A stretch of DNA of 64,000 nucleotides. It comes from Stentor roeselii. Taxonomy: Eukaryota > Ciliophora > Heterotrichea > Heterotrichida > Stentoridae. The translations under genes were made by a program, and so were the position numbers. The stretch is taken from NCBI GenBank assembly GCA_006503475.1, contig RSEH01000168.1, positions 1-64,000 on the forward strand, in the 5' to 3' direction. The first letter of the stretch is position 1, and each line of letters starts with the position of its first letter. Of this stretch, positions 1 through 58,427 are shown one piece after another. Below the pieces are notes generated by a model. It saw only the letters and a list, made by a program, of their open reading frames with translations. It had not been told where the DNA came from and searched no databases.

Positions 1-2346
1 GTGAATTTGATTTTTTTTGGTTGTTTTATATAAACATTTATATATAATTATCAACAATTACAACCAGAGTATATAACCATATAGCAATAGCTATTAGTCT
101 ACATTATAAAACCCTGCAGTAAATTTATTAGAATCCTTTAAAATTTGTTGATTGTGACCAAGGCCACTTTAAAATCCTTTAAACTAATAATTAAGCAGTT
201 TTTGAAATATCTAAAGATTTAGAACTTTTTCATGAACGGACGCCCAGTAGTGTTGACGTAAGCAAGTGACCAGAGGTGATAAGTGCTGACGAGATCACAA
301 CCAGTTAGTGAACTAAAGTATAACAATAGATCTCAAAGTCTCTGCAAAACTAGTGTCTTTACACTAAAGTATTTCACTGAAAGCTAATGTAAGCTTAGCG
401 ATTTCAAATGTTCAAGTTTTTGTTTGAAGTTGAGTGTTCAATGCAAAGTAGATACCGATTCATTACTTTCCTCATTTTCTTAGGTCCAGAATATTACCCA
501 TAGCCGCTGAAGACGATATATCAGTAAAGAACCCAATTCAAGTTGATCAGTGATGGGTCTAAGTTATAGTTATAATCTAACTCATCATAAGATGTGCTAG
601 AACAAGTCTATGCGATTTGTATTTTTTTAATGTTTTTGGTATTCTTTATAGATGTTTCAATTTCTTCTAGTCTTAAGTCCTTTATCAAGTTGTAGTGTGT
701 ATAGTCATTCATTATTTTATCCAATGTGAATATAATCTGTGGGTGTTGTTGAATTAGCTTTCGATGAGATTTTTCATTCAATCTTTAATATTCATAAAAT
801 TGAGCAGATATCTCTATATTTGAATAACATCCCTGCTATAATTTACTTGTTTCCGTTGTCGATGATATGCATAATAATGCATCAGACAATAAAAATATTG
901 ATTAATAGTTTCATCTAAGTGTGTTGGAATGATTTTGTAAATGGATTCTGAACTAATTCGCCGAAATCTATTTGAATACAACTTAAAATTATGATTTGAC
1001 TCGAGTATGAGACACTTAAAATCTCAAAATGAAGAATTTTAGAAAACTTTGATTAGCCTTTTCTATTGAAATTTGAGTAAAACACAGAGATTGAGGTTTC
1101 TCATCCTATTCCCAATGTCGGGGTGGAGATAAAATTATAAATAATTATGATAATTAAAGCAGCATGGATAATTATTTTTTGCATGATTTTCTTTTTTGAT
1201 AGGTAAGTAAAATGTAATTGAAAGTTTCTGCAGTTCATTCCTTATAGAGAGGACGATATTCTTCGTTGAAGATGTTTTAAAGAAATGTTACTTTGATAAT
1301 TATCTGATAGAAATCATTATTTAGATTTATGACTCACTAAATTTCATTTTTAAGCCTGATTTATATTAAAAGTTGATAACTTGTTGAACAAATATTGTTG
1401 GGTATATATCTATCACTTTATGTAATTTGTAATAATTTCAAGTATTTAATATGATATTTTAGTAAGTTCAAGAGAATCACTCTGATATCATCTAGAACCA
1501 CGTCAGCTTGCCAAAGAAAGTGTTGAACCAATTAGCATAAAGAGATTGATTATGAATATTTACTCTCCTAAGATCATTATTTTTCTGATTAATCCTGTTT
1601 TACTTGTTTTCTATGATATTTAAACAAAATCTTAGAGGTGATTTCATAGAAGTAATTTAGAGATGATGAAAATGGACTGATTAATATATTGGGTAGTTTC
1701 TTCCAACATAATTCAGAAACTTTACTATTAAAAATGTTAATCTCAAGATGAAAAGACTCGAAGATTAGTCTTCAAACAGAAAATCAACTTTGGCAAACTT
1801 TAAAATTTGGTTGATTAGTAGAAACATAAAAATATTCAGAGATTTGATTTAGGTTCAAATTTCTTGAGTGAATGATTAGTCAATGATTAGCTCGATTGAA
1901 GTAGGATCAATCCTTTTTAGTAGCCCCAGGGTAAATTTGATTCGATTTCTAGAGTATTTTGATATCGAGGATAAACCTATATTAAATCATTTGGTGATGA
2001 TTTAAAACACAATTATTAGAAATAATCTCAATCTAGAAGCGAATGCAAAAAATGATGATAAGTCATAAAAACTAGATAAAAGAAACCATTTCTAAATTTG
2101 AATATTTTTTAGTAAATTCAAGTAATGAGTCGATCTGTAAACTAATTGTTGAATTTTTTTCAAGTTACCTTAAAACTTTAAATCACTTTCAGTACAGGAG
2201 AAAAATTCAAAAGAATTATAAAGATAACATAGTTAAAAATATATAGATTAATTTAATCTTTATTCAAATAACTGTCAACTATTTAATTATTTTTTTCATC
2301 CGAAGATGATTTCTAATAAAATTTATTAACTTCCTAAGCCTTAAGA
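1..2346. other. Long non-coding stretch
   Basis: This AT-rich stretch has stops in all frames and no open frame of useful length. I saw no tRNA-like T-arm, no rRNA similarity and no telomeric repeat. A slightly GC-richer patch at about 235-315 stands out by eye but has only a weak 5-bp hairpin. It lies 3' of the receptor gene that ends at 2347, so part of it may be that gene's downstream region. No degenerate copy of the neighbouring receptor was recognised. Confidence 0.6.
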
Positions 2347-5300
2347 TTAATTAGAAGAATAAACCTTATCACAATAACTTTCTTGATCCCTCGAAGGCTT
2401 ATTGTTCATTTGGTAGATCACTTTCGAATTTTTGAAAAATTGAAAAATAAACCATTCAGAAATTTCAATTTCAGGTTCTTCAGATACCAAGAAGGAAGGA
2501 ACTTTAGATGTAAGTAGCAAACCAATCAATAAAATCAATGAAAATCCAGCAAATTCAACTGCAATTAATGTAGTGATCATTTCTTTATCCTCTATAATCG
2601 AAGCAATCAACACTCCCCAGAGAGCCATGGCAAGGACCGTAATTTGGAGTATTTCAGCTCTTTTATAATTGAAGGGTTTGAGTTTAATAGTAAAAAAAAT
2701 CATGAGAATAATTATTCCAGACTGTGTTAGTCCAGCAGCTCTCTGATTGAAAACTTTTACACATTTATTTAGAATCACTAAGCATACCTGAAAAACGCTT
2801 CTTATAGAGTAATAAGAAGTTTTAGTTGAAATATTCAAGAGTTTCTGAATCCTTTCACATTGAGGTCTATTAAAAGTAGAAGTGAATAGATATCCCGTTA
2901 TAAGTAAAGTAGAAATAATTGCAATCGTTTTATGCTCTGATGTATAACAAAAAGTTGTGCAGTCTCGATAAAGATAGGTATCTTCAATCCTGGATCCAAT
3001 AGACTTTCGACAGTCATAAATATTCATCATCATTGAAAATGTCGGTAAAAATGCGAAATGAGCACTAAATATGAATAAATATTCTAAAATTTCTTTTATT
3101 TTTTGTCCTATACTTGATCTGTTCAATAGAAATTCAGCGCAAAACACAAAATTCGAAGCTATTCCTACACAAGCGATTGTCAATGAGACATAGTAAATTT
3201 TCCAAAAAGTCTCAAACGTAACATCGTAGTACATCATGAAATCCATCGACAAAAATATTTGAAAGTTTTGTATCAGGTACTTGTAACCCTCTTGATCTGG
3301 TCCAACAGTCAAAATCTGAAAAAATTCGATGAAGTAATAAAAGTAAAAAAAGTAGTCAGATAACGTTATTATTCTTTCTTCATTTAAGGGAACCACTGGT
3401 ATTGAATATTTTTTATATGAAAAAAATGCTGAGACAATCACCAAGAGTAAGAAAAAACTTGAAAGAATGTAGTTAACCATCTTTCCTTTATTGGAATCTC
3501 TTATTTCTCTATCTTTAAATGGACACTCTCCTTTTTTTATCATGTCGGATGGAGCTTCACTTAACCCAGTAGGCCACTCAACAGGATTAGCAACAACAAA
3601 AGACTTGATGCTGTAACGATCAAGATAATAAACTTTATTCAAGTAATATTCTTGAGTTGTTTCATTTTTAGTTACCTGCGTCCAGGAGAACTTCATATTT
3701 GCCCTGTTGTTTGAATCTGGATTAAAATAAAGAGATCCAGAACATCCAGTAAATTTCAGATTTCTGATAGTTTTCATTATTTTTTCATAATCTTCGTAGT
3801 CATCTCCTTTTGTTATTAGGTACTTAAAGGTTTCTTTAAAGATGAAAAAAGTGTCAAAGGTAAGTCCCATGAACTGTGTTGATGAGAATCTATTGGAAAG
3901 GTAGCTGTAAATTTCTTGACCATAGTCACTCACAAATTCTTCAGCCAAGAAGGTGAATCCTCCTATAAGCAACTCTTCTCTTTTATATATAAAAGTATCA
4001 TTTTCATCAGTTTTTTGAAAGTTTTGGAGAATTGTTTGATCTGATATAATGATTGCTTCTCCTTTTCGTACTCCGGCATCATAAAGACCTTCAATGATAT
4101 AAGATGCTGCAGTTGATAATATAATATAAAGTCGGCAATTGAAATTTTTCAGTTCTTCATAATACGACCTGAACTCTTCAAAATCTTTTCTTGTATAATT
4201 TGCCCTTAACAGCATATTCTGTTCATTCAAAACTTTAATATCCAAAGAATGAATGTAAACCAGTACATTCTCATACAAAGGTTGGTAAGCAGTATCATCA
4301 GAAAAAATAAGTATTACGTTTTTCCAGTCCAGAGCGAAGAACAATGAAAAAGAGATTGCAACCAGTTCATTATAAGCAAGAGTAAGTTTTGTAAATTCAG
4401 GAACTTCTGTCTTATTTTCGAATTTCACATCTTGAGCATAAGGAGATATCTGAGCAATTTTTTTTCCTACTTTTCTCAACGCAAGTAAATTTCCCAAAGC
4501 CCCTGAAGGCCAAATGCCAGTTAAATACCCGAGACCAGTTTCATTAGCAATCAAGGAAAAGCAGTAGTTATACCAAAACTCATCATAAAGTGCATTTCCA
4601 CAGTCTGTACTAAACAATTCTATCTCAAAATTAGGAATTTCATTTAAGGAATTACTTAAAGATTTCGCGTAATTCGCACCTTGGTACCAATATGAAAATG
4701 TGGGAAAGTAACCGTAATGATAAATTTCTGAAGTGCCATTCGCTATCCAAAGCCGAATTTTCGATTTTTCAGTTAAAGATGTCGTTGAAGCCACATTTCC
4801 TGGAAAGATTATTTGAGAAGTGATTGAGATTTTTTGATTGGATTCTCCCACAATAACTTTACGACCTGACTGGATGTTCAACAATTGATAGCTGTTGACA
4901 CAGATACCATTAGGGCAAACATCTTCGATTTTATTAACATTTTTTAGGATTTTTGATAAAACTGAATCAATTGAAAAAATTTCGTATTCTGAAGCTGTTG
5001 AAGAATTTAAAGTATCTTTTTCTGATAAGATTAAAGACCCTTCAAGACTTGATGAGTAAACAGCTGAACTTTTTAATATAAAGTAAGACCCTTTGCTATT
5101 AAGATTTTGACTTTTTATTTCTTTTTCAAGTTTTAATAAGGCTTCACCCTCTGCAATAATAATCAATTTTCGAAGGCCAGCTGTTTTTATTCTTTTTTTT
5201 ACAATGTTTGAGATGCTTTCTTGAGGCATAATGACATCAAAGTGAATTAAAGATGAGGCATTAGATGAAGAAAAAATAGACTGGGCCAGGTCTATATTTT

Positions 5301-5721
5301 CATCTGTTCCACTTGAGACAATGCCAAAATCTTCCCATTTGAGATATTCTGCAATATTTTGTAGATGAACTGACTCAGTCTTCAGCTCTCCATGTACATA
5401 GAATCGATTTTTTGCGGCAAAATCATCAGTTTTTTTAGTGATTGTCAGATAAGCAGCTGAAAGGTACTCAGAAATACGGTTTAATATAAAAAAGTACCTT
5501 CGATGAAGGGTTAAGTCGATGATTAGGTCTATCGAGTTTTCATCATATTCAATCAAATCGTCCAATGAGAAATTCGAGTCAATCTCAAGACTATTCGGAA
5601 ATTTGGTGTAATAAAACCTTAAGTCACTTGGAGTAGACTCAGAAAACACAATCAGCAAAGATGACTCATCAAATGCATAGACGAGTATCAAAAGACATTG
5701 AAGATAAAACATTATAACCAC
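2347..5721 (-). CDS. Double Venus-flytrap multi-TM receptor, copy 1
   Basis: This 1124-residue protein has a signal-like N-terminus (about residues 1-17, ending before FDESSLL). Two successive type-I periplasmic-binding (ANF_receptor-like) modules follow. The first, about 20-300, is shortened at its N-terminal lobe but has the SAAYLTIT strand. The second, about 325-690, is complete, with QISPYA, the DWKNVILIF strand and a GCSGSLYF motif near its end. A juxtamembrane CPFKDREIR motif (about 734) leads into 7-9 hydrophobic segments (about 747-1065) and a short cytoplasmic tail. The layout is that of a cell-surface ligand receptor. The membrane region contains conserved DCTTFCYTS and KPFNYKRAE motifs and cannot be assigned with certainty to class C GPCRs or to a channel fold. 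M4 could be the real start instead of M1. It is a close paralogue of the gene at 6638-9964, and the ligand is unknown. Confidence 0.8.
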   Translation of the reverse strand: MVIMFYLQCLLILVYAFDESSLLIVFSESTPSDLRFYYTKFPNSLEIDSNFSLDDLIEYDENSIDLIIDLTLHRRYFFILNRISEYLSAAYLTITKKTDDFAAKNRFYVHGELKTESVHLQNIAEYLKWEDFGIVSSGTDENIDLAQSIFSSSNASSLIHFDVIMPQESISNIVKKRIKTAGLRKLIIIAEGEALLKLEKEIKSQNLNSKGSYFILKSSAVYSSSLEGSLILSEKDTLNSSTASEYEIFSIDSVLSKILKNVNKIEDVCPNGICVNSYQLLNIQSGRKVIVGESNQKISITSQIIFPGNVASTTSLTEKSKIRLWIANGTSEIYHYGYFPTFSYWYQGANYAKSLSNSLNEIPNFEIELFSTDCGNALYDEFWYNYCFSLIANETGLGYLTGIWPSGALGNLLALRKVGKKIAQISPYAQDVKFENKTEVPEFTKLTLAYNELVAISFSLFFALDWKNVILIFSDDTAYQPLYENVLVYIHSLDIKVLNEQNMLLRANYTRKDFEEFRSYYEELKNFNCRLYIILSTAASYIIEGLYDAGVRKGEAIIISDQTILQNFQKTDENDTFIYKREELLIGGFTFLAEEFVSDYGQEIYSYLSNRFSSTQFMGLTFDTFFIFKETFKYLITKGDDYEDYEKIMKTIRNLKFTGCSGSLYFNPDSNNRANMKFSWTQVTKNETTQEYYLNKVYYLDRYSIKSFVVANPVEWPTGLSEAPSDMIKKGECPFKDREIRDSNKGKMVNYILSSFFLLLVIVSAFFSYKKYSIPVVPLNEERIITLSDYFFYFYYFIEFFQILTVGPDQEGYKYLIQNFQIFLSMDFMMYYDVTFETFWKIYYVSLTIACVGIASNFVFCAEFLLNRSSIGQKIKEILEYLFIFSAHFAFLPTFSMMMNIYDCRKSIGSRIEDTYLYRDCTTFCYTSEHKTIAIISTLLITGYLFTSTFNRPQCERIQKLLNISTKTSYYSIRSVFQVCLVILNKCVKVFNQRAAGLTQSGIIILMIFFTIKLKPFNYKRAEILQITVLAMALWGVLIASIIEDKEMITTLIAVEFAGFSLILLIGLLLTSKVPSFLVSEEPEIEISEWFIFQFFKNSKVIYQMNNKPSRDQESYCDKVYSSN

Positions 5722-6637
5722 TGAATTTCAAATCAGATTTTTTCTGAATTTAAATTCATTCAAGATGAAAAAATTTAATTTTTGATTGGAATTTTTCGGG
5801 CAAAAAGTTAATTGAGGTTGATTCATCTTTGCTTGAGATAAGACTTAAGTCATTTCTTGAGGTAGGAATTGTTAGGGATTGTTTGGGATTGACTTGGACA
5901 TATTTTGAGGATGAAAATTAATTAGCATAGAGTTTTTAGTCGAATATGTTTATAAGATAAATTTATTAAGATGAAATATTTAATTATATGTAATTAGGAA
6001 CTGCATAAGTAAAAGTAGGATTTATTAGTCAGAAAAGATTTAAATTTATCTTGAATACCTTGATGATAATTTTGGATCAAAATCAACCTAAAAGATTAAT
6101 TAGACTGATTTTATAAATTATTTTTTATAATATCAATTGCTTATAGCTAAGCATCCATCAAAGATTTATGATTCAAATTAGTTTGAAGCTCTATATAGAT
6201 AATCTCACTGACATATTACTAATATATCAAGGTCTTAAGAATAATTAATATGTCAAAAAAATGCAACAGCTAAGCATAACTAATCAAATATACTTTAATA
6301 AGTCTATAATATAATGCGATATTTGAAAATATTGTATTTATATTGGATAAGCTGTGTGAATATGATATTTTTTTGTATTATATAAAAGGTAAAATCTATT
6401 ACTACCCCCTTTCTTTGAAAATTGAATACTTAAAATAATTGATTAATTCATAACAAGATGAGGCATAAGTTAATCTCAAATAATATACAAAGTTTAAATC
6501 AAAAGAATTCGAAGAGTATATATGTTTAAAGGAGTCTACCTATTTAACATCTTAGGGTTAATGCAATTCCTTCAGATAAATTTTCTGTAGGCACATATGA
6601 AAACTCATTAATATTTTTATATCTCTAGCTTAGCTAA
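5722..6637. other. Intergenic region between tandem receptors
   Basis: About 0.9 kb of very AT-rich DNA separates the two paralogous receptor genes. It holds the promoter of copy 1 and the 3' end of copy 2. No open frame, RNA gene or clear copy of coding sequence is visible. Confidence 0.5.
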
Positions 6638-9600
6638 TTAATCGTGGGATGATCGTTGGCTTATCTGATATAATATTTTTGAACTATTAAAAAACTGGAA
6701 TATAAACCATTCAGAAATCTTGATCTGAGGTTCTTCAGAAACCAGAAAAGCAGGAACTTTATTGATAAAACTATACCCAATAAAGAAAATCACAGCAAAT
6801 CCAGAAAATTCAACAGCAATCAACAACTTAATCAACTCTGAGTCTTCAATGACAGCAGATAAGAAAACCCCCCAAAGAGCCATTGTCAAGGCAGTGATTT
6901 GAGCAATTTCAGCCCTTTTATAATTATAAGGTTTCATCACGATAGTTAAAATAATCATGATCAAAATGAAAAAAGATTGAAAAAGTCCAGCAGTACTTTG
7001 ATTAGAAATTTTTAGACACTTGTTGATGATGACTAAGACAACTTGAAAAACACTAAAAACTGATAAATAAGAAACTTTTGTTGAAATGTTTAAAAGATTT
7101 TGGACCTTTTCACATTGATACCTGCTGAAAGTTGATGCAGCAAGGTAACCAGTTGTGAGAAGAGTTGATAAAATTACTATAGACCTGTGATGTGAAGTAT
7201 AACAAAATGTGGTGCAGTCTCGATGTAGGTAAGTATCTTGAAGACTTGAACCAATCGAATTCCGACAGTCGTAAATATTCATCAGCATTGAAAATGTTGG
7301 TAAAAATGCGAAATGAGTAGTAATGATAAATAAAATCTCGAAAAAATCTTTGATTTTTTTACCTATAATTGATCTATTCAGCAAAGGGCTGATGAAAAAG
7401 GTCAGATTTGAAAGAACTCCAAGAAAAGCTATTGAAATTGAAATATAGTAAATCATCCAAAAAGTATCAAAAGTAACATCATAGTACAAAATAAAATCCA
7501 TTGATACAAATATTTGGAAGTTTTGAATCAATGACTTATAGGCTTTCTGATCTGGTCCTATTGTTAAAATCTGGAAGAACTCAATGACAAAAAATAAGAA
7601 AAAAGAATAATCAGATAAAGTGATTGTTTTTTTTTCTTCAAGCATCATTGTCACAGATGAGTGTTTTTTGTATGACCACCAAGCTGATAAACTGACAACG
7701 ACTAAGAAGAAACTTGATAAGACATATACAATGATTTTCCCTTTATTCGAATTCCTTATTTCTCTATCTTTAAAAGGACATTTTCCTTCTTGAATCATAT
7801 CAGAAGGAGTTTCATGCAACCCTGTAGACCAAACAGCAGGATTGACAATAGTAAAAGACTTCATATTATACCTGTCAACAAAATAAATCTTTTCTAAGTA
7901 GTACTCATGAGAAGTTTCATTTTCCACTACCTGAACCCAAGAAAACTTCATATTTGCTCTGTTATTTGTATCAGGACTAAAAGAAAGCATCCCCGAGCAC
8001 CCAGCAGTCTTCAAATTTCTGACACTATTTAAAATCTTTTCATAGTCCTCATAATCATCTCCCTTCATTATCAAAAACTTAAAAGTCTCTTTAAAGACTA
8101 AAAAAGTGTCATAAGTCAGTCCCATGAACTGTGTAGATGGAAAAATCTTCGAAAGTTTCTGCTTCACCTCAAGTCCAAAGTCTCCATTAAACTCTTCAGT
8201 TAAAAAAGTGAACCCTCCAATCAACAGCTCTTCTCTTTTATACAAAAAAGTATCATTTTCATCAGTTTTTTTGAAATTTTCTAGAATTCTTTGATCTGAA
8301 ATAATGATAGCCTCTCCTTTTCGCACCCCGACATCATAAAGAGCTTCAATAATATAAGGTGCAGCAGTAGAGAAAATAATATAAATCCTGCAATTAAGTC
8401 TTTTTAGCTCTTGAAAGTATTTTCTGTAGTCTTCAAATTCATTCCTCGTATAATTTGCCTTTAAAATTCTTTCTTCATTTAAAATTTTCACTCCAAGAGA
8501 TGTCAAGTAAGGACCTATCTGATCAAACAACGACTGATAAGCTGCATCATCTGAAAAGATCATCACTGAGGTCTTCCAGTCCAATGCGAAATACAATGAA
8601 AAAGACAGTGCTATGAATTCATCTAAGGCTAGAGAAAGTTTCATGATTTCTGGAGTTTCTTTCTTGCTTTCAAGTCTGGTGTCCATCGCGTATGGAGAAA
8701 TTTGGACTATTTTCTTACCTGCTTTTCTTAATGCATATAGATTACCATAGGCTCCTGACGGCCAGATACCCGTCAAGTAACCAAGACCCATTTGATCGGC
8801 GATTAGGGAAAAACAGTAGTTGTACCAATTCTCATCATATGAGGCATTTCCACAGTCAGTTGGGAAAAATTCGAATTCGAATTGAGGGATTTCATTTAGG
8901 GTGTTTGTGAGTATTTTTGCATAGTTCGCTGCTTGGTACCAGTACGCAAAGGTCGGATAAAACCCAAAGTGATATATCTCTGATGTGCCATTCGCTATCG
9001 AAAGTCGAATTTTCGTTTTTTCTGCCAAAGGTAAAACAGAAGTCACATTTCCTGGAAATACAATCGCCCCTGTAATCCTTACACCCTCATCCAGATCTCC
9101 CACAATCACCTTTCGACCAGACTGAATATTAACTATCTGATAACTTCTCAAACAAATATTTTTCGGGCAAATTTCTTCAATTTTTCCAACTTTTTTCCTT
9201 ATTTTATCCAAAATTTCAGAAATGGCTGAAATTTCGTATTCTGAAAGTGTTGAAGAACTCGATGTATTCGGCTCTGATAAAACCAAAGAACCTTCAAGAC
9301 TCGCTGAATAAACAGCTGAACTTTTCATAATAAAAGAAGACCCTTTACCATGCAGGTTTTGTTTTTTAATTTCAAGTTCAAGTTTTGAAAGAGCTTTATT
9401 TTCTGCTAGGATCATCAATTTTCGGATACCTGCTGCTTTTATTTGCTTTTTTATCAGTTTTGAAAGACTTTCTTGTGACATGTTTTCATCGAAGTGAATC
9501 AAAGAAGAAGCATTTGAATTTAAAAAAATTGAATCGGCAAGAATTGAGTTTTCGATTGTTCCACTTGAGATGATGGAAAAACCTTCCCAGTTTAAATGAT

Positions 9601-9964
9601 TTGTTAAAATTTTTAAACTTGTTGATTCTTGGTTCATGTTTCCATGGACGTAAAATCGACTTTTGGAAGAGAAGTCATCAGGTTTTTGGGTTATTGTGAG
9701 GTAAGGAGAAGATAAATGCTCAGAAATACGGTCTAACTTGAAAAAGTTTCTTGGATGAAGGGTTAGGTCGAGTATTAGGTTGATTGAACCTGGATTATAA
9801 GAAAATAATTTTTCGGTGGAATAGTCTAAATCGATTTCAAAGGTGCTTTGATGTTGGCTGTAATAGGACCTTAAATCACTTGGAGTTGAATTTGAAAAAA
9901 TGACCAGCAGAGAAGACTCATCAAAAGCTTTGGCGATCACAAATAACAAATGGATCCAATGCAT
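6638..9964 (-). CDS. Double Venus-flytrap multi-TM receptor, copy 2
   Basis: This 1108-residue protein is collinear with copy 1 from the signal peptide to the tail. The same landmarks appear: AFDESSLL after a hydrophobic start, GRKVIVG, LTGIWPSG, ISPYA, GVRKGEAIIISDQ, a GCSGML motif, CPFKDREIRNSNKGK before the first membrane segment (about 740), then DCTTFCYTS and a KPYNYKRAE motif. Two type-I periplasmic-binding modules are followed by 7-9 membrane segments. Long shared peptides and a shared orientation show that copies 1 and 2 arose by tandem duplication. Divergence is spread over both modules, with the membrane domain and the second module better kept. The likely role is a plasma-membrane receptor, with ligand and signalling mode unknown. 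The single open frame shows no need for introns. Confidence 0.8.
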   Translation of the reverse strand: MHWIHLLFVIAKAFDESSLLVIFSNSTPSDLRSYYSQHQSTFEIDLDYSTEKLFSYNPGSINLILDLTLHPRNFFKLDRISEHLSSPYLTITQKPDDFSSKSRFYVHGNMNQESTSLKILTNHLNWEGFSIISSGTIENSILADSIFLNSNASSLIHFDENMSQESLSKLIKKQIKAAGIRKLMILAENKALSKLELEIKKQNLHGKGSSFIMKSSAVYSASLEGSLVLSEPNTSSSSTLSEYEISAISEILDKIRKKVGKIEEICPKNICLRSYQIVNIQSGRKVIVGDLDEGVRITGAIVFPGNVTSVLPLAEKTKIRLSIANGTSEIYHFGFYPTFAYWYQAANYAKILTNTLNEIPQFEFEFFPTDCGNASYDENWYNYCFSLIADQMGLGYLTGIWPSGAYGNLYALRKAGKKIVQISPYAMDTRLESKKETPEIMKLSLALDEFIALSFSLYFALDWKTSVMIFSDDAAYQSLFDQIGPYLTSLGVKILNEERILKANYTRNEFEDYRKYFQELKRLNCRIYIIFSTAAPYIIEALYDVGVRKGEAIIISDQRILENFKKTDENDTFLYKREELLIGGFTFLTEEFNGDFGLEVKQKLSKIFPSTQFMGLTYDTFLVFKETFKFLIMKGDDYEDYEKILNSVRNLKTAGCSGMLSFSPDTNNRANMKFSWVQVVENETSHEYYLEKIYFVDRYNMKSFTIVNPAVWSTGLHETPSDMIQEGKCPFKDREIRNSNKGKIIVYVLSSFFLVVVSLSAWWSYKKHSSVTMMLEEKKTITLSDYSFFLFFVIEFFQILTIGPDQKAYKSLIQNFQIFVSMDFILYYDVTFDTFWMIYYISISIAFLGVLSNLTFFISPLLNRSIIGKKIKDFFEILFIITTHFAFLPTFSMLMNIYDCRNSIGSSLQDTYLHRDCTTFCYTSHHRSIVILSTLLTTGYLAASTFSRYQCEKVQNLLNISTKVSYLSVFSVFQVVLVIINKCLKISNQSTAGLFQSFFILIMIILTIVMKPYNYKRAEIAQITALTMALWGVFLSAVIEDSELIKLLIAVEFSGFAVIFFIGYSFINKVPAFLVSEEPQIKISEWFIFQFFNSSKILYQISQRSSHD

Positions 9965-10537: not shown

Positions 10538-12661
10538 TCACATAAACTCATAAGATTTAATCCAATACGAAACCTTTTCCAAAATCTGGTCCCGAGTGCA
10601 AGGTTTAACTAAAACATCATTCATTCCAGCTTGAAGTAAGTCTTTTTGAATGAACTCGATTTCATGTGCAGTAGCTCCAATGATAGGTGGCAATTTTTCA
10701 ATTTTCTTATCAACTAGCATCTGATGTAAAATAATGGTTGTGTCGATTCCGTTTAAAACTGGCATTTCACAGTCCATTATTATACAGTCAAAGTTTTCAC
10801 TAAGGACTAGTTTAATTGCCTCTTCACCATTCAAAGCATAGCTACACTGAAAACCTTCAGGCTCTAAGGCTTGTAATAGTGTAAGATAGTTAAAATAAGT
10901 ATCATCAACAATCAACACTTGTGATTTGTTTAAATTTTTCTTTGGGAAATTAGGATTATTTGCAAGGTTTTTAGTTGGGTGTGATGAATTCAAGTGATTT
11001 TTTAAAGCACTAGTTTCACCAAGTTCCACAGGAATAGAAAACGAAAACTTTGAGCCAAATCCTTCAGTTGACTTCACTTTGATCTGATCACCTCCTAATT
11101 CCTTAACAAGCATATTCGAAATATAAAGTCCAAGTCCAGCTCCCTGTGGATTATTGACCTGATCATCAATTTTCCCAAAAACTTTGAATAACTTTTCAAT
11201 TTCCTTCTCCTTGATTCCAATTCCAGTATCTTTACAATCAATTCTGAGCACCCCTTGAAAAATCTTAACAACAAGTGAAATTTTTCCAGCTTTAGTGAAT
11301 TTCCTCGAGTTATTCAAGAGGTTAATTAAAATTTGTTTTAATCTGTAAGGATCAGTTTTAATTTCCATCGGAATCACAGATTTAACCAAAAGTTGAGTAG
11401 AGATATTAGAGCGAGTCAAGTCAAGTTCAAAGATTTTCAAGCATTCTTTCATTAATTTAATCAAGTTGAATGAAACTCTAACAGTTTTCAAACAACCTGT
11501 GACGATTTGAGAGTAATCAAGTAAGTCATTGATAAGGCATAGAAGGTAATTACAAGATGAGCTGATTATTTCTACTTTTTCTTTATTTTCCAATGTAATT
11601 TCCGGGGATTCTAGTAAAAATTGTGACATGCTAAGCATGGCATTTGTGGGACTTCGAAGTTCATGAGTGACAGTTCTAAGCAGGGCAGTTTTATAATGAC
11701 TTTCTTTGCTATCTTGTTTCAATTTCAGCAGTGACGTGACATCTCTTCCGATGAGTATTAAAACGTTTTTTCTATCCCAAGCCTCAACTTTTCCTTCCCA
11801 TTCAATAAACAGGCCATTTTTTTCAGTGATTCCAAAAACGACCCTTGAACCTTCAGGTTGATTGAAAGTTTTTAAAATGTCTTCATTTAAACTAGACTTA
11901 TTTTGGACCTGGTTGTATCTTTGGAAGTACTTCAACTTGTTCAAGTAAATGAAAAAATCTTCTTTTTTTATCAAGGATTGCATCATTGAGTTGCTGAAAA
12001 GCTTTTGTTGGGTTGAACTGAGGACTATCATGTAACTTTGAAGACTTTCGAGAACTGAAGTGAGTTTTTTGTGTGATTCTTTAAGTTTTTCTTTAGAAAA
12101 GCAGAGGTCGAGGTCCTGTAAGTGGTTGAGGTAAATACAGCAAAACATCATGATGCAGATTCCACTTGAACTTGAAGCGAATAGTGGAACTTCATTTATG
12201 CTGAATAAGGAAAAGTAATATCCGCTTACTGTCCAGACCAGGGTGTGTTTAACACTTAAAATTAAAGCCCCACCAACACTTTCAATCAAATATCCCTGAT
12301 AATAAATCGCTACAAAAGGAGCCAACTGAGTCCACAACACACTATAATTCTTCTCTTTAATATAAGCAAAGTAAATAAGCACCAAATTAATAAACTCTCC
12401 ATAAATCAAAGAAACATACTTCGAACTCCCTTTATTCTTTTCTATATAACTGTTTATATAAATCATCGTCCCATATGATAATAAATTTGTCAACTTTTCC
12501 TCAGCATTGCAAAACACTCCCTGATATGCAAGTTCAGAAATCAAGTTGAAAATTCCAAGAACTATTGATATTCGATAAGCGATTTTCAGTCTTCGCATCG
12601 CTGAGTCAATTTTCATTGATTTCAAGTCTTCCTTCAGGTCAAAACAGTTTGATTCTGTCAT
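10538..12661 (-). CDS. Membrane hybrid histidine kinase
   Basis: A hybrid two-component sensor. Five or so hydrophobic segments fill the first 170 residues, then comes a PAS-like stretch (ending in VLILIGRDVT). The dimerisation/phosphoacceptor helix has the H-box THELRSP at about residue 332. The ATPase domain has DTGIGI and GAGLGLYIS, and the C-terminal receiver domain has IIMDCEMPVLNG (phosphoacceptor Asp about 629) and a conserved Lys in VLVKPC. It should autophosphorylate on His and pass phosphate to its own Asp; an Hpt partner is not in the window. The open frame reaches up to 12685, but that start lies inside the divergent AP-1 sigma coding region (start 12677). The Met at 12661, followed by TESNCFDL, is therefore preferred. 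The gene stops with TGA, which supports TGA as a true stop here. Confidence 0.88.
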   Translation of the reverse strand: MTESNCFDLKEDLKSMKIDSAMRRLKIAYRISIVLGIFNLISELAYQGVFCNAEEKLTNLLSYGTMIYINSYIEKNKGSSKYVSLIYGEFINLVLIYFAYIKEKNYSVLWTQLAPFVAIYYQGYLIESVGGALILSVKHTLVWTVSGYYFSLFSINEVPLFASSSSGICIMMFCCIYLNHLQDLDLCFSKEKLKESHKKLTSVLESLQSYMIVLSSTQQKLFSNSMMQSLIKKEDFFIYLNKLKYFQRYNQVQNKSSLNEDILKTFNQPEGSRVVFGITEKNGLFIEWEGKVEAWDRKNVLILIGRDVTSLLKLKQDSKESHYKTALLRTVTHELRSPTNAMLSMSQFLLESPEITLENKEKVEIISSSCNYLLCLINDLLDYSQIVTGCLKTVRVSFNLIKLMKECLKIFELDLTRSNISTQLLVKSVIPMEIKTDPYRLKQILINLLNNSRKFTKAGKISLVVKIFQGVLRIDCKDTGIGIKEKEIEKLFKVFGKIDDQVNNPQGAGLGLYISNMLVKELGGDQIKVKSTEGFGSKFSFSIPVELGETSALKNHLNSSHPTKNLANNPNFPKKNLNKSQVLIVDDTYFNYLTLLQALEPEGFQCSYALNGEEAIKLVLSENFDCIIMDCEMPVLNGIDTTIILHQMLVDKKIEKLPPIIGATAHEIEFIQKDLLQAGMNDVLVKPCTRDQILEKVSYWIKSYEFM

Positions 12662-12676
12662 TTTTTTTATAAAGAA

Positions 12677-13152
12677 ATGATTCATTTTTTACTTTTGATT
12701 AGTCGGCATGGTAAAATCAGACTTTCCAAGTATTTTACGATGTTTCCTTTGGCAGAAAGGGAAAAAATGCAAAAAGAAGTAAAAGTAAATAGATAAAAAC
12801 TATGTGCATTGGAAGAAATAGCAAAATGTGCAATTTTTTAGAATATAAAGATATGATTATTGTTACCAAACGATATGCAAGTCTTTATTTTGTTGCTGGG
12901 ATTGATAAGGATGAAAATCAACTCATGGTGTTGGAGGTCATTCATACTTTTGTGGAAATTCTTGATAAACATTTCAAGAATGTTTGTGAACTTGATATCA
13001 TTTTTAATTTTCAGAGAGCGTATTATATTTTGGATGAAATGATCATTGCTGGGTATATGCTGGAAACTAGTAAGACTCATCTTTTGAAGTATATTAAGAC
13101 TCAGGATGAACTTATGGATGAAGGAAATGAAGAGATAGTTAAAAGTAAATAG
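12677..13152 (+). CDS. AP-1 complex sigma subunit (clathrin adaptor small chain)
   Basis: The small chain of the AP-1 adaptor, which sorts clathrin cargo at the trans-Golgi and endosomes. The C-terminal part (KMCNFLEYKD, KRYASLYF, VCELDIIFNFQRAYYILDE) is unmistakable. The expected N-terminus (MIHFLLLISRHGKIRLSKY) is encoded just upstream in another frame. Joining them needs removal of 12779-12792 (14 nt). The result, exon 1 12677-12778 plus exon 2 12793-13152, gives 153 aa, close to the family's usual ~158, and the junction aligns without a gap to AP1S (E-I-K-T-M-C-I-G-R before the SKMC). The Met at 12802 is internal. The start lies only about 15 bp from the divergent histidine kinase start. 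Confidence 0.88.
12779..12792 (+). other. Probable 14-nt intron in AP-1 sigma
   Basis: GTAAAAGTAAATAG begins with GTA and ends with the AANNAG seen in the 15-nt introns of this window. Only a length of 2 modulo 3 restores the AP-1 sigma frame, and this is the only GT...AG that fits. It is one base shorter than the others, so an assembly error is the main alternative. Confidence 0.65.
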
Positions 13153-30531: not shown

Positions 30532-33500
30532 CTATTTGCTTTGAATTGATGATGAATGAATTTCAGAATTTAGTGAAATTTCGCCTGGGTACTCAATAAT
30601 CGAATCAGCTGGAGTAACGCTAACACTTTTCCTATTTTTCATCATCTTCCTGTTTTTCGTCCATTTTTTCCAGCTTTTAAATAAAGTCTTGACATTCAAA
30701 ATATCTAAAAAGAAATTCATTTTTTTATTATTTCTGATTTCATTCATCTGCCCATCACTATAATACCTCTGCTGATAAATACCTCTGATTTTCGCAAGTT
30801 TCCTAAGAGTTTCCTGCTCCTCTCTCTGAATCACATTTTTATTTAAATTTTCTTCTTTTCCTTTAGCTTTTTTGCGATACTTGTACTTCATAATCGCAAA
30901 CAAGAAGTCATTATAATAAATAAAGCCAAAGACATCGATTTCCATTTGAATAGCCGACATTTTTTTCATCATCTGGTCATAGTCAAGATGAGTAAAATCC
31001 CCAAAATCACTTGAAAGTTCTTTCATCATACGAATTAATTCTCGAAAATGAATTCTATGAATGACTTGCTTATCAGCAAATTGAGCCCAGACTTTCTTTA
31101 TCATTTTAATATCATGAGTGAACTTCTTAAATATATTAAAAGGGTTTTTTTCAAAGTCTTCATAAGTCTGAATGATGACCATGATGAAAAAGTTCAGCAT
31201 CACAAAAGACGTGATCGTCACAAATGACATGAAAAAAATTCCAGAAACAGTCAAATTAATCGCGTTTTTACAGTCATACATAATTAAATACCAGTCTTCT
31301 CCAGTAGAAACCCGAAATAAAGTAATCATCGCTTTGCCGAAATTGTGAAAGTTGTTATAAGAATTGATGACTTTTCCTGAATGAATGCTGTGAAAAAGAT
31401 TCACCCCGAGGACTGAATAAATAAAAAATATGAGCGTGAGAAGAGACAGGACATTAAGAATAGCTGGAAGGGAATACCCAAAAATAGTTATCAAAGTTTC
31501 TAATGTCTTCAGCGCTTTAAAAATCCGGATCAACTTCGAAATCCTGAAAATTCTCAACATTTTAAACATTTGCGGGCCTAGCCGGAGTAAGATAGTCCTG
31601 GTGCCAATAAAAAACGATAAAAAAATATCGATCGCTGAAGTTGTCACAACGAAAAAGTCAAATCGATTCCAGCTATTATAAAAATACGCCTTGAGTCCAG
31701 ACCCAATGATTTTAAGCACAGCTTCTAAAATAAAGACAAGAGTGATTGCAAGGTTGATATTTTCAAGAACCATTAAATACTCATTAGAAGCTTCATTATA
31801 AACCATGGCCATTTGCAAGATATTCACAATGATAATAAAAATAATGAACAGTTCAAACAACCTACTTTTATAAATCCTTGTACAAAACCTTCGAAGATAC
31901 GATTTTTCTGTTTCCACTTCAATATGAGGCCTAGCCCTAGGCAAAAGATGCTGAATTTCAACCCACAATGCCTGTTCTTTCGTCAAGACCAGCGCTGCTG
32001 TCGACATTTCATTTCTTTTTGCCCAGTTAAACTTGTCGAAAACGACTCCAATAAAAAAATTGAGGAAGAAAAAAGACCCGATAAGAATAAAAACCACGAA
32101 ATAATAAGCCAGATAAGGAGAAGAGTCTCGTTTCGGAGAAAGGCCGACTCCTCGGACGTCGACTGCCTGGTACATGATATCAGGCCATCCTTCTTCAGAG
32201 CTGAGGATAAACAAAGTGCTAATCGCGTTGATCACATTGTCGTAGTTCGGCTCAATCACATTCCAAGTAAAGCCAGAACTCAAACAATCATCTTGATTTT
32301 CTATTAAAATATTTGAACAAGAGTAAAGCTTTCCTCCAAGAAGTGAAACTCCAAGAATAGCGAAGATAAGCCAAACGATTAAAAGTACAACAATTACATT
32401 GAAAATTGCGATCAGAGAGTCGAATAATGCGACTATCACGATTTTCATTGAAATGTTGTGGCTTATAAAACGTAAAGGCCGAAGTGTTCGAAGGATGCGA
32501 AAGGATTTAATCACTGAGAAGTTGATGTCGATCAATGAGAGGTCAATGATAGAAAAAATCACTATCAAGAAGTCTAAAACATTCCAAGTATCCCTGATGT
32601 ACCCAGTCCCTCCCTCGTAAAATCCAAGAGCCACTGACTTCAACAGGAACTCAAGGAAGAAAAGGACTGTGAAAGAAAGGTCTAAATTATTCATCACCTT
32701 CACTAGTTCAGTTGAATCCGGCTCGTTAATCAGATAAGTGTCCACCGCGACTTTCACTGTACTACAAGTAATGATGAACAAAACAAAATAATCAAAAAAT
32801 TTGTTGTTTATTGTATCATATGAAAAAATCCTTAACTTTGAATCCTTTTCAAATAAAAAGAAACTCTTCTCACAGACTATCCCGTCATAAGTCGTCTTTT
32901 TCATCGTTGTTTGTCGGTCAAGTTCAGTTTCAGAGCCACTGTCATCAATTTCAAAATTCATCTCTTTCATCATCTGCTTTTTCGCCTCTTGTTTTTTACG
33001 TATTCTTCCTTCAAAATTCCCAAAAAGCGTTCTTTTAGCCAAAGAAGCTCTTCTTTCAGGCTGAACATTGACAATCGCTTCATTATCATCATATTTTCCA
33101 TTAAACCCTTCAAGTAAGATAGCAAGAAACAAATTCAAAAGAATGAAATTTCCTAAAATAATCCAAGAAATCAACAAAATTGCTCCAGAAGGGCCAGCAG
33201 GAGACCTCATCGCATTATAAAGAATATTCTGCCAGTTCTCAATAGACAAGACCTGAAAAGTGCTAATAAAAGAATTATGAAAAGTATCAAAATTCGACCT
33301 AGGTTTACCTTCAGGAAAGTCGAAACCATCTCGAAAGGCCTGCATTCCGAGCAGGGTGTAGATAAAAGTGAACAATAAAAGCAACATCGCGATATAAATG
33401 AACTTTGACATTGACCCGCTGATTACTCTCATGATAAGTTTCATTGAGTTCAGGTATCTGAAGAGTCTTGCAACTCGCACTACTCGAAAAATCCGAAAGA

Positions 33501-55073: not shown

Positions 55074-58000
55074 TTAACCTGAAGCTGAATCGTCGTGTGA
55101 CCTGTTTTCGAAGTCGATGTTACTGCTTTTGTTGACGTAGAAACTTTCTGCTTGGCTTTTTCTACCGAAGGAAAACATCACCAGGTCTTTGATTTCTGGA
55201 CCTTTTTTGGAGACTAGAAGGTTTGGAGTGAGTTTTGATTGGAGAATCACGGTTATTGTGAAGAAGAGGAACCAGCCTCCTAGCTGGACTCCGATTAGGA
55301 TGAATGGCTTTATATTGCTTTTTTGGCTTATTATGCAGACTATTGTGTTCCAGATCACGCTTATTGACATTGTCTTGCACCAGAGATTTGCACGGTCGTA
55401 GTTGAATGGATGCTTTAGAGCTAAAATGAAGAGGAGAACTGATATTTGGATCATTAGGTAGATTATACTGTGGGTTACTGGGTAGTCTTCTTTTAGGATT
55501 TTGCTTATTACTACTAGGATTACCACATTCATATTTCGGACTACTAGGTATAAGGAATCTATTTTGATGTTTATATTTAACTGCTCAGTTTGCCATAAAG
55601 TCCTATACAAAATCGCAATAGGTACATACGAAACCACCTCAATACAAGCAACAATAACATAAATAAGATGTGGCATTTTCCAGCATCTAACTGTGCAATC
55701 ATAATTCAAATAAGAGTCAGTCAAATGCTTGCCAATACTTTTATCACACATCAAAATACTGAACAAACTGACAATAATAGGCAAAAACAGGTAGTTCGAC
55801 ATGATGGGAATCGTATAAGGCTTAATCGCATTGAGTTTCCTTTTAATCGACTTGATCCCACAGTAAAACTTGCTGAAACTTGATAAAAGAAACACCAACC
55901 AAAAGGCAGTCACTGAAAGCAAAACCAAAAAAATGACCCAAAAAGCCCGTTGTAGGTAGTTCAATGAAATTACCTCAGAAATATTGCTGAGGACTTCATT
56001 AAAGTCAGAAAACGATGGACCGATCGATATAATTTGAAGCGACTCGACAAATATGAAGCCCAATGTCAAGTAATCTTCAAACATCGCATAACATTTTTCA
56101 TGCATCATCGATAATTTGTAGTACTTTAGCCTTTTAATCGTGTAAAGAGTGAGAACGATAACAATGGCTAACAAAATAATAGAAATCACGATTTTTATAT
56201 TCTTTCCAACTCGGGACTCTTGTATTTCTTTTTCCATGAATCCGCAATTTTTGTAATCTTTTTTCATGTCTTTTGGAATACCACCAGTGGGCCAGACCCC
56301 TTCTTTCAGTGACTGGAAATAAACACTTCCAAGAGGACTTATAAGAGCGATTTCGTCATCATGCCAGTTTCCCTGGTCATCTTCATAGAAGTTGAACAAG
56401 TTAAAATAAAAAATATTCCTATCATTCGAAGACGAGTCAAAAGAAATAACTCCAGTAGCACCCTGAAACCGAATAAGTCTCATAGCACTATTAAAAACCT
56501 GATGATCCTCATAACTCTTCCCTTGATCAAGCAAGAACTGAGTAGTTTTAGCAGCAGTATAAACCGCATCAACATTATAACTTCTACACCAACTAACATT
56601 CCTACTCTTTAAAAATTCTTCCCTGATCCCTTTTCCATAATCCCCAACCCAAGCAGCATTATAAACAACAAAACTTCCATGCATGAGTTCTTTTCTCTTC
56701 ATTGAATTTCCAGTGGGCTGTGAAAAAGCATCAAGTCCCGTTGTAGTAAAGAATATAAAAGTGAAATCTCCTCTTCTAGCACCCATGTCGTACATTCCTT
56801 CAAGCCAAAAGAATGCTGAAGGGTCTCCCATTCCCAAAAAGATAATATTGCAGCCTAAACTGATAGTTTTTTTCATATGTTCGTAGTACTGAGCGATGGA
56901 CTCATTTGACAAGATATTATTAATCATCCTGTACTTCTCCTCATTGATGATTTCATATCCTTGTGTCAATGCACTTTTATTCAAAGTTTCATAAGAAGCG
57001 ATCCCGAATGAGTCATTCGCGTAATGCATGACGATTTTTTTCCACCCATAAATATTTATCAAATTCGACCAGGCCCTTGAAAACAAAGAAGCTGGCGAAA
57101 CAATTCTTACAAATGTCGGAAACCGGGTCTTGTTGGACAAAGGAGCCGCGCTGAGGATACCTGCTATAAAAGGCAGGCGAAGCTGCATAGAAGCCATTTG
57201 GTCTAAAAGGTTTGTATTGATGAAAGTCACAGTTGGGATATAAGCGTGACCCATCTTCGGGTAGTGCTTCAAAATGCACGTCTTCGAATAGTTGAAGTCA
57301 AAAACGCTCACTCCACAGTCAACCTCGTCATATAAAAAAAAATCGTGATTCGGGAATAAAGACTTGTCACGGTTTATCTTTTCCACTCCGAAGTAAGTCC
57401 CTTCGTGGTATCGCTTGTTGTGGAAGACTGGAGGCGCGTTTGGGTTAAAGGTCCCTGTATTCGCTGAAATCGTTATTCGTGACTCAGGGTAAAGTGAACG
57501 GTTTGAAACACCTGAGTAGTAAATTATTGGAAGTGTTAGGGATAAGGAGGTGGATGAAATTTTTCCTACTTGTTGAAATGTAGAATTTTGGATGTTTATA
57601 AGTGAATAACTTGAATTTTTTGATAGTTCTGAGTAAAACTGTTGAATCTGAAAAGAAGTCAGACCTTTTTTGTTGAAAACATTGAAAAAGGGCTGAAGTT
57701 GTTTTTCTAGGTAGTCTGTTTTTGAATTTGATGACTCGAGGCCAGCTGGGACTAAAAACAATGAGCCTTCTGTTTGAACTTGATAAATGCATTCATCTAA
57801 GTAAAGACCCATACTGCCTTCTTTGTTCATTTTAGAGTCAAGGAATCCTTGATGGACTTTCAGGCAAAGGTCCTCGTGTCCTAAAAACACAAAACTTTGA
57901 AGTCCTTGACTTTTGAAAATTCTGATGAAAAGACCAGAAACCTGGTCAACTGGCATGTCTTGACTTATTGATAAATGATTAAAACTAATAGAGTGATAAT

Positions 58001-58427
58001 CCTTGAATTTTTGATAAAACCTTTCATTTTCATTGGAATATGGCCAGGTAAATGCGAATGTCCCTATTCTTAAATATTGAAGAAGCCGGCTTAGAGCTTC
58101 GGCTTTGAGGCCTGGAGATTGTTTTAAGTAAAAAGTTGATTCTGATGGTTCACCTTGACTTAGAAATAATGCCGGAATTCCTCTTTCTGATGATAAGGTC
58201 TTGATATAGAAAGATTCGATCTCGGTGGATTCACAGACTATAATTAAATCTGCTGATTCCAATGAGAGGCTGCTAAGTGAAACTACTGAGTCTAGTATTG
58301 TTATGTCCACCTTTGATTTTAGTTTTTCTAAATTTGTTTGAATTGCTGTAGATATGGAAGCATTTGGCTTATATGATATCAGGTGGTAGCTTGTGGCTAT
58401 TGTAAGAAGATTCACTAATAAAAGCAT
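55074..58427 (-). CDS. Double Venus-flytrap multi-TM receptor, divergent third member
   Basis: This 1117-aa protein has the same layout as the pair at 2347-9964. A hydrophobic signal (LLLVNLLTIATSYHL) is followed by a first periplasmic-binding-like module (about 20-300, with LKAEALSRLLQYL) and a complete second one (about 315-680, with VRIVSPASLFSRAW, YGWKKIVMHYA, GARRGDFTF and a GVISFD motif). A juxtamembrane DYKNCGFMEKEIQESRVGKN precedes the first of 7-9 membrane segments (about 746). KHPFNYDRANLWC corresponds to KPFNYKRAE of the others. Identity is low outside these motifs. It is probably a surface receptor, with ligand unknown. Confidence 0.78.
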   Translation of the reverse strand: MLLLVNLLTIATSYHLISYKPNASISTAIQTNLEKLKSKVDITILDSVVSLSSLSLESADLIIVCESTEIESFYIKTLSSERGIPALFLSQGEPSESTFYLKQSPGLKAEALSRLLQYLRIGTFAFTWPYSNENERFYQKFKDYHSISFNHLSISQDMPVDQVSGLFIRIFKSQGLQSFVFLGHEDLCLKVHQGFLDSKMNKEGSMGLYLDECIYQVQTEGSLFLVPAGLESSNSKTDYLEKQLQPFFNVFNKKGLTSFQIQQFYSELSKNSSYSLINIQNSTFQQVGKISSTSLSLTLPIIYYSGVSNRSLYPESRITISANTGTFNPNAPPVFHNKRYHEGTYFGVEKINRDKSLFPNHDFFLYDEVDCGVSVFDFNYSKTCILKHYPKMGHAYIPTVTFINTNLLDQMASMQLRLPFIAGILSAAPLSNKTRFPTFVRIVSPASLFSRAWSNLINIYGWKKIVMHYANDSFGIASYETLNKSALTQGYEIINEEKYRMINNILSNESIAQYYEHMKKTISLGCNIIFLGMGDPSAFFWLEGMYDMGARRGDFTFIFFTTTGLDAFSQPTGNSMKRKELMHGSFVVYNAAWVGDYGKGIREEFLKSRNVSWCRSYNVDAVYTAAKTTQFLLDQGKSYEDHQVFNSAMRLIRFQGATGVISFDSSSNDRNIFYFNLFNFYEDDQGNWHDDEIALISPLGSVYFQSLKEGVWPTGGIPKDMKKDYKNCGFMEKEIQESRVGKNIKIVISIILLAIVIVLTLYTIKRLKYYKLSMMHEKCYAMFEDYLTLGFIFVESLQIISIGPSFSDFNEVLSNISEVISLNYLQRAFWVIFLVLLSVTAFWLVFLLSSFSKFYCGIKSIKRKLNAIKPYTIPIMSNYLFLPIIVSLFSILMCDKSIGKHLTDSYLNYDCTVRCWKMPHLIYVIVACIEVVSYVPIAILYRTLWQTEQLNINIKIDSLYLVVRNMNVVILVVISKILKEDYPVTHSIIYLMIQISVLLFILALKHPFNYDRANLWCKTMSISVIWNTIVCIISQKSNIKPFILIGVQLGGWFLFFTITVILQSKLTPNLLVSKKGPEIKDLVMFSFGRKSQAESFYVNKSSNIDFENRSHDDSASG

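Follow-up and report, generated by a model that had tools for sequence, protein, structure and literature searches.

A large family of putative receptors with two predicted Venus-flytrap modules per chain in the ciliate Stentor roeselii

Introduction

Several described systems join Venus-flytrap (VFT) modules to a membrane protein. We compare them here with a family of putative receptors of the ciliate Stentor roeselii, three genes of which lie in a stretch of 64,000 nucleotides (bases 1-64000 of contig C80, hereafter the window) of a genome that was searched over 44.4 Mb and 522 contigs. Each chain of this family is predicted to carry two successive type-I VFT modules ahead of a multi-pass membrane domain. 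The class C G-protein-coupled receptors (GPCRs; CaSR, mGluR, the taste receptors and GABA-B) are alike in that a type-I VFT adjoins the membrane (second ciliate module against CaSR, E 3e-16), whereas the ciliate receptors differ by two flytraps per chain, nine hydrophobic segments, the lack of a 7tm_3 match and the lack of a G-alpha match over the cut-off in the genome. The ionotropic glutamate receptors (iGluRs), represented by GluN1 and plant GLR3.4, place flytrap on flytrap on membrane domain, as the ciliate chains appear to do; the first ciliate module resembles the amino-terminal domain (ATD) of GluN1 and the second resembles GLR3.4. In iGluRs, however, the second flytrap is of type II and is split by the pore helices, whereas both ciliate flytraps are of type I and uninterrupted, and Lig_chan was found in none of 30 family members.

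The flytraps of the bacterial sensors BvgS and EvgS are likewise of type II, and they are mounted on a kinase. These sensor kinases are alike in carrying tandem flytraps outside one membrane protein (PMC4352136), and the ciliate receptors differ in that Pfam found no kinase domain in the window receptor proteins or in the 30 members. A further likeness concerns the membrane part. Pkd2 of fission yeast is described as having a cytosolic tail, an extracellular domain and, between these, a membrane domain of nine helices that is essential, and as passing Ca2+ under tension (PMC11277609); the ciliate receptors would have the same layout with another ectodomain. More broadly, the Pkd2/FLC proteins (PF06011) and the cysteine-rich TRP-like proteins may share with the ciliate receptors an extracellular N-terminal domain, nine membrane segments, a cytosolic tail and distant homology by profile; the receptors differ in the ectodomain and in having no direct PF06011 match, and it is the second half of the membrane domain that carries the homology.

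Reports of tandem flytraps or periplasmic-binding domains concern bacterial sensors such as BvgS, EvgS and CdgH; where papers on CaSR, taste and mGlu receptors came up, we assume that the paired flytraps are those of a receptor dimer. We found no tandem type-I VFT receptor in the open-licence literature, subscription papers and deposited ciliate annotations being outside the search, and within the literature searched the receptor family is undescribed. Excerpts of a survey of 24 ciliate genomes report no class C or D GPCRs (PMC9960496); this survey would probably miss the family described here, because its stated Pfam list consists of seven-transmembrane (7TM) families. A study of choanoflagellate receptors is described as having screened ciliate proteomes with 7TM models (PMC12716839), a design not aimed at this family.

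Results

Two uninterrupted frames occupy positions 2347-9964 of the window on the minus strand, one at 2347-5721 (1124 amino acids, aa), in which the start ATG is probably at 5712 and gives 1121 aa, and one at 6638-9964 (1108 aa). They are 65% identical over 1109 aligned positions. The initial annotation mentions three proteins; two are in this interval, and the third lies outside it, being most likely the frame at 55074-58427 on the minus strand (1117 aa, 24% identity). The receptor features of the window, in which VFT1 and VFT2 denote the first and second flytrap modules, are as follows.

2347..5712, minus strand: receptor gene 1 (1121 aa), with a hydrophobic N-terminus, VFT1, VFT2, membrane domain and short tail
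4768..5670, minus strand: gene 1 VFT1, a shortened type-I periplasmic-binding module (profile comparison and Pfam)
3538..4767, minus strand: gene 1 VFT2, including part of a short stalk (PF01094, E 1.9e-8)
2407..3519, minus strand: gene 1 membrane domain, with nine hydrophobic segments and conserved Cys 904, 921 and 925
6638..9964, minus strand: receptor gene 2 (1108 aa), 65% identical to gene 1, its neighbour in tandem
9020..9922, minus strand: gene 2 VFT1 (family alignment and Pfam scan)
7793..9019, minus strand: gene 2 VFT2 (family alignment and Pfam scan)
6662..7774, minus strand: gene 2 membrane domain (family alignment)
55074..58427, minus strand: receptor gene 3 (1117 aa), a divergent member of the same receptor family
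57486..58391, minus strand: gene 3 VFT1 (family alignment; alone without a PF01094 match)
56262..57485, minus strand: gene 3 VFT2 (PF01094, E 2.7e-16)
55134..56240, minus strand: gene 3 membrane domain (family alignment)
203..604, minus strand: decayed relic of a further receptor copy, with pieces of VFT2 and membrane domain, stops and frame changes (tblastn E 3e-7 and 6e-4)

The proposal of two type-I periplasmic-binding modules ahead of the membrane domain, the first of them shortened, is borne out by Pfam and family profile matches. When the modules of the window proteins were scanned singly against Pfam, module 2 matched PF01094 (ANF_receptor, the type-I VFT) at E 1.9e-8 in gene 1, at 1.1e-4 in gene 2, which is under the cut-off, and at 2.7e-16 in gene 3. 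Module 1 matched at E 1.4e-4 in gene 1 and 0.0084 in gene 2, both under the cut-off, and module 1 of gene 3 gave no PF01094 match. Because the window matches of module 1 are under the cut-off or missing, its evidence from single sequences is weak; the separate comparison of the modules with ANF_receptor that had been suggested held for module 2, with gene 2 under the cut-off, while for module 1 it is the family profiles that are strong.

Each of the 30 members in the alignment, when scanned whole, has a PF01094 match at E up to 0.1. Four canonical members (L031-L034; 1202-1243 aa) have two full-length modules, with PF01094 matches of E 5e-65 to 1e-49 in two stretches each. Profiles built from these four matched the GluN1 ATD with module 1 (E 1.2e-16, profile positions 105-365), and plant GLR3.4 (E 1.3e-28) and CaSR (E 3e-16) with module 2. 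The module-1 profile of the 30 members, which include the window proteins, aligned with canonical module 1 at 98.6% and E 5e-16, columns 3-295 against 4-366; this end-to-end alignment identifies module 1 of the family with that of the canonical members, reduced in length to about 300 positions from their 365 or so. The same 30-member profile also matches the GluN1 ATD directly, at the C-terminal (closing) strands (E 1.9e-4). We strongly infer from these profiles that the first 300 or so residues fold as a flytrap. Failure of this part to adopt a periplasmic-binding fold had been named as what would overturn the two-module proposal, and the profile evidence points the other way. A recent origin of module 1 by duplication of module 2 was unsupported, the two modules aligning at 6% and E 0.006 in the 30-member group and at 67% and E 5e-5 in the canonical members.

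Module 2 of the canonical members keeps residues aligned with 'SYASSSRLLS' and 'PNDEHQATA' of CaSR, a region that holds amino-acid-contacting residues. The aligned Ser-Ser is replaced by Gln-Asp and Met-Asp in genes 1 and 2; at the aligned Asp, gene 1 has Asn and gene 2 retains the Asp. Since the Ser-Ser is changed in both genes, and the Asp also in gene 1, genes 1 and 2 may bind another kind of ligand. As for module 1, the initial annotation suggested that the two modules could mimic a receptor dimer and combine two ligands; the nearest relative of module 1 is the GluN1 ATD, and a regulatory cap would fit this no less well than a second site for a ligand.

The three window genes belong to a large family. 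Gene 1 as a query found 41 matches in the genome, and queries with the membrane domain alone returned 87 rows for gene 3 and 78 for gene 1. After the removal of 11 of the 87 rows, which were polytopic proteins and second pieces of one locus, 76 loci are left, some of them fragments and some at contig ends; they are spread over 48 contigs, and 34 of them lie within 15 kb of another locus. Frames of 1,091-1,287 aa hold 64 of the 87 rows, and one of these (on C502) contains a stop. When PF01094 stretches in the 64 long frames were assigned to modules by their distance from the membrane domain, 23 frames had matches in both modules, 31 in module 2 alone, 2 in module 1 alone and 8 in neither; this genome-wide scan undercounts, because gene 2 is among the 8 and matches when scanned whole.

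The ratio of nonsynonymous to synonymous substitution (dN/dS) was 0.07-0.42 in every module for 14 of the 16 closest pairs listed, and 0.17-0.95 or undefined for the other two, which are near-identical. Purifying selection thus acts on all three modules, and the frames are not chance open reading frames. Mean pairwise identity among the 30 members is 29% for VFT1, 36% for VFT2 and 32% for the membrane domain, which makes VFT1 the fastest-changing part. A tree of 34 members built with FastTree places genes 1 and 2 as sisters and unites the four canonical members in a single group; support is 1.0 in both cases. The relic at 203-604 and the gene clusters point to birth-and-death turnover of the family. 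For the neighbours L005 and L006 on C476, the membrane domains are 91% identical (dS 0.13) and the VFT1 modules 55% (dS 2.45), a pattern that suggests gene conversion of the membrane part while the sensors diverge. A separate 710-aa frame (G000:C307:32456-34237) has two PF01094 matches and is missing from both membrane-domain lists; it is possibly a secreted or truncated twin-flytrap protein. One scan each of viral and prokaryote contigs, with one peptide pattern, found no receptor relatives.

In the membrane domain, hydropathy averaged over 34 sequences has nine peaks, near gene 1 residues 756, 798, 854, 890, 942, 976, 1002, 1035 and 1062, and the domain probably consists of nine helices. The conserved cysteines 904, 921 and 925 sit between the fourth and fifth peaks. 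A hydrophobic, signal-like N-terminus is visible in the sequence, and together with nine helices it would place both flytraps and the cysteine loop outside the cell and the tail inside. Gene 1 contains both motifs noted earlier as conserved in this part, DCTTFCYTS and KPFNYKRAE, and the gene 2 version of the second is KPYNYKRAE; D920, C921, C925, H930, P1016 and N1018 are invariant in all 30 aligned members.

In profile comparison this membrane domain resembles the C-terminal part of large polytopic proteins encoded in the genome (97.7%, E 2.5e-12), and hhalign also links it with ten cysteine-rich proteins, through their membrane part (93.8%, E 1.7e-7; also 87%, E 3.9e-6). Among the hhalign controls, a reversed alignment gave E 0.11, an unrelated polytopic stretch 0.15, and five permutations of the columns 0.08-0.69. 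Among the ten cysteine-rich proteins, six carry DUF7630 and five have PF06011 matches at E up to 0.01, of which one is over the cut-off; the independent element of the TRP link is the profile match between these proteins and the receptors. The 26 PF06011 rows found genome-wide include none inside a receptor-family frame. The receptor membrane domain may belong to a superfamily common to cysteine-rich and polytopic proteins of this genome. The initial annotation could not place this part in any known family; it proves to be common to other large families of the genome and to have a distant link to cysteine-rich proteins that are TRP-like by Pfam, and is placed in part only.

The polytopic relatives (L035-L037 and L041-L044) are about 1,240-1,550 aa long, with the C-terminus related to the receptor membrane domain. 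Full or partial Pfam scans of L035, L036, L041, L043 and L044 gave only a weak TMEM100 match (E 0.034) in part of L035. The cysteine-rich, TRP-like membrane domain marks a second large family, with 58 rows, of which 23 lie in frames 2,352-2,611 aa long, on contigs that include C178, C515, C132 and C356.

Discussion

We tentatively favour, at somewhat less than an even chance, the view that these genes encode a large, partly clustered receptor family in which two type-I VFTs sit on a nine-helix membrane domain, distantly related to Pkd2/FLC, and gate or modulate a cation path. Both modules would be outside the cell, with a short stalk linking them to the membrane domain. VFT2 would bind the ligand, as the module that adjoins the membrane and is best conserved, and the fast-evolving, shortened VFT1 would be a regulatory or assembly cap, like the GluN1 ATD in the NMDA receptor. 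On closing, VFT2 would pull the first helix and so gate or modulate a cation (Ca2+) path in the membrane domain; signalling would not involve a heterotrimeric G protein, and diverged pockets would tune the paralogues to different dissolved chemicals. A gated cation path is the most likely output, its main rival being a non-channel scaffold, and the proteins are perhaps an expanded chemoreceptor family of ligand-gated TRP-like channels. We hold it possible, with greater reserve, that they constitute a new class of ligand-gated channels, with tandem type-I VFTs on a Pkd2/FLC-like nine-helix domain, and that their dozens of paralogues make up a ciliate chemosensory repertoire in a genome where G-alpha was not detected.

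Ciliate chemoreceptors are poorly known, and dozens of flytrap receptors would help to explain how the cell tastes its surroundings. The family would be a second eukaryotic mode of stacking flytraps, beside the NMDA receptor, and would supply natural two-module sensors for testing. If the channel reading is true, it would add a further way of wiring a flytrap to the membrane, beside those of iGluRs and class C GPCRs.

Several results weigh against a Pkd2-like channel. The second hydrophobic segment is the weakest, with one window over the threshold in a second analysis, and eight helices instead of nine would leave the tail outside; the charge pattern agrees with the nine-helix topology in part and is only mildly favourable. 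The receptor membrane domain has no match in the PDB at E up to 10, and the three window membrane domains have none in Pfam, PF06011 included, at E up to 1. When the linking alignment was shifted circularly in ten ways, four shifts kept E 1.7e-7 although only columns 158-330 were aligned, and the remaining six gave 1.6e-6 to 0.0019. The homology signal is therefore located in the second half, which extends from the cysteine loop as far as the last helices; the first-half helices are aligned too, without independent support. The PF06011 matches of the ten cysteine-rich proteins are a matter of selection, because these proteins were picked from PF06011 rows, and the receptors, when compared directly with L038 and L040, two further proteins that match PF06011, gave a negative result (E 0.21). 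With this result, and with no direct PF06011 match, the TRP/Pkd2 link is transitive and is a lead. Moreover, no pore residues or signature were identified in the membrane domain, and the relatives reported for PF06011 include a flavin carrier.

The main competitor, which we regard as conceivable though doubtful, is that the membrane domain is a non-channel anchor or assembly scaffold, and that the sensor binds peptides, surface molecules or mating signals and acts through partner proteins. The missing pore signature is in keeping with it, as is the occurrence of related membrane parts in very different proteins, both cysteine-rich (some in frames of up to 2,611 aa) and polytopic. However, the many helices, the invariant residues and the purifying selection exceed the needs of a plain anchor.

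It is unlikely that the proteins are divergent class C GPCRs, in which a heptahelical bundle with extra helices would signal through G proteins or partners of a similar kind. Their module 2 is indeed closest in sequence to the flytraps of plant GLRs and class C GPCRs, and no cysteine-rich domain was seen in the module 2 and stalk region of gene 1, a feature described also for GABA-B (PMC12716839). Nevertheless, 7tm_3 (PF00003) is absent from all 30 members at E up to 0.1, and its sole match in the genome (L045, on C446) falls under the Pfam cut-off and lies in a 450-aa frame that is unrelated. Nine hydrophobic segments and the profile homology to other membrane modules also speak against a class C receptor, as does the search of the genome for G-alpha (PF00503), which gave 20 rows and none over the cut-off. 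Frames of 132-246 aa, matched at profile positions 159-277 as for small GTPases, account for 17 of the 20 rows; the row of 468 aa on C74 represents a different GTPase, with MMR_HSR1 as its best match in Pfam, and the other rows below the cut-off are a 647-aa frame on C507 and a 64-aa piece with stops on C392. As introns or gaps could hide a G-alpha gene, its absence is likely and not proven.

An improbable alternative is uptake, in which the two flytraps would hand nutrients to a transporter-like membrane domain in the manner of bacterial periplasmic binding proteins. The periplasmic-binding fold serves uptake in bacteria, and the 53 module-2 matches listed include one from bacteria, a branched-chain amino-acid binding protein (4gnr, E 4e-12). 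In addition, Flc1, one of the PF06011 relatives, is reported as a regulator of flavin transport (PMC9600462). The best matches are nonetheless receptor flytraps, and the size and clustering of the repertoire resemble those of a sensory family. Identity as an iGluR is rejected, as no Lig_chan or iGluR pore match was found in two window proteins (E up to 10) or in the 30 members (E up to 0.1).

Other features of the window and the genome

A hybrid histidine kinase (HisKA, HATPase and receiver domains) at 10538-12685 on the minus strand adjoins the receptor genes. As a receptor partner it was set aside, since gene neighbourhood is weak evidence in ciliates. Two further minus-strand frames have Ion_trans matches: the frame at 30532-35976 is an 1814-aa channel with four Ion_trans stretches, and that at 58986-63983 has RIH_assoc, Ion_trans and EF-hand matches and is IP3R/RyR-like.

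TGA terminates 5 of the 26 frames of the window; Blepharisma is described as reading TGA as tryptophan (PMC9942806). The 15-base GTA..TAG spacing of tiny introns is not enriched in the window, with 17 occurrences where the remaining lengths between 10 and 39 give 6-30. Telomere repeats of CCCTAACA stand at three of the 12 contig ends read, on C384, on C429 and at the right end of C80 (L056, L066 and L062), and, in keeping with a probable heterotrich, the same unit is given for the telomeres of Blepharisma as well (PMC9942806).

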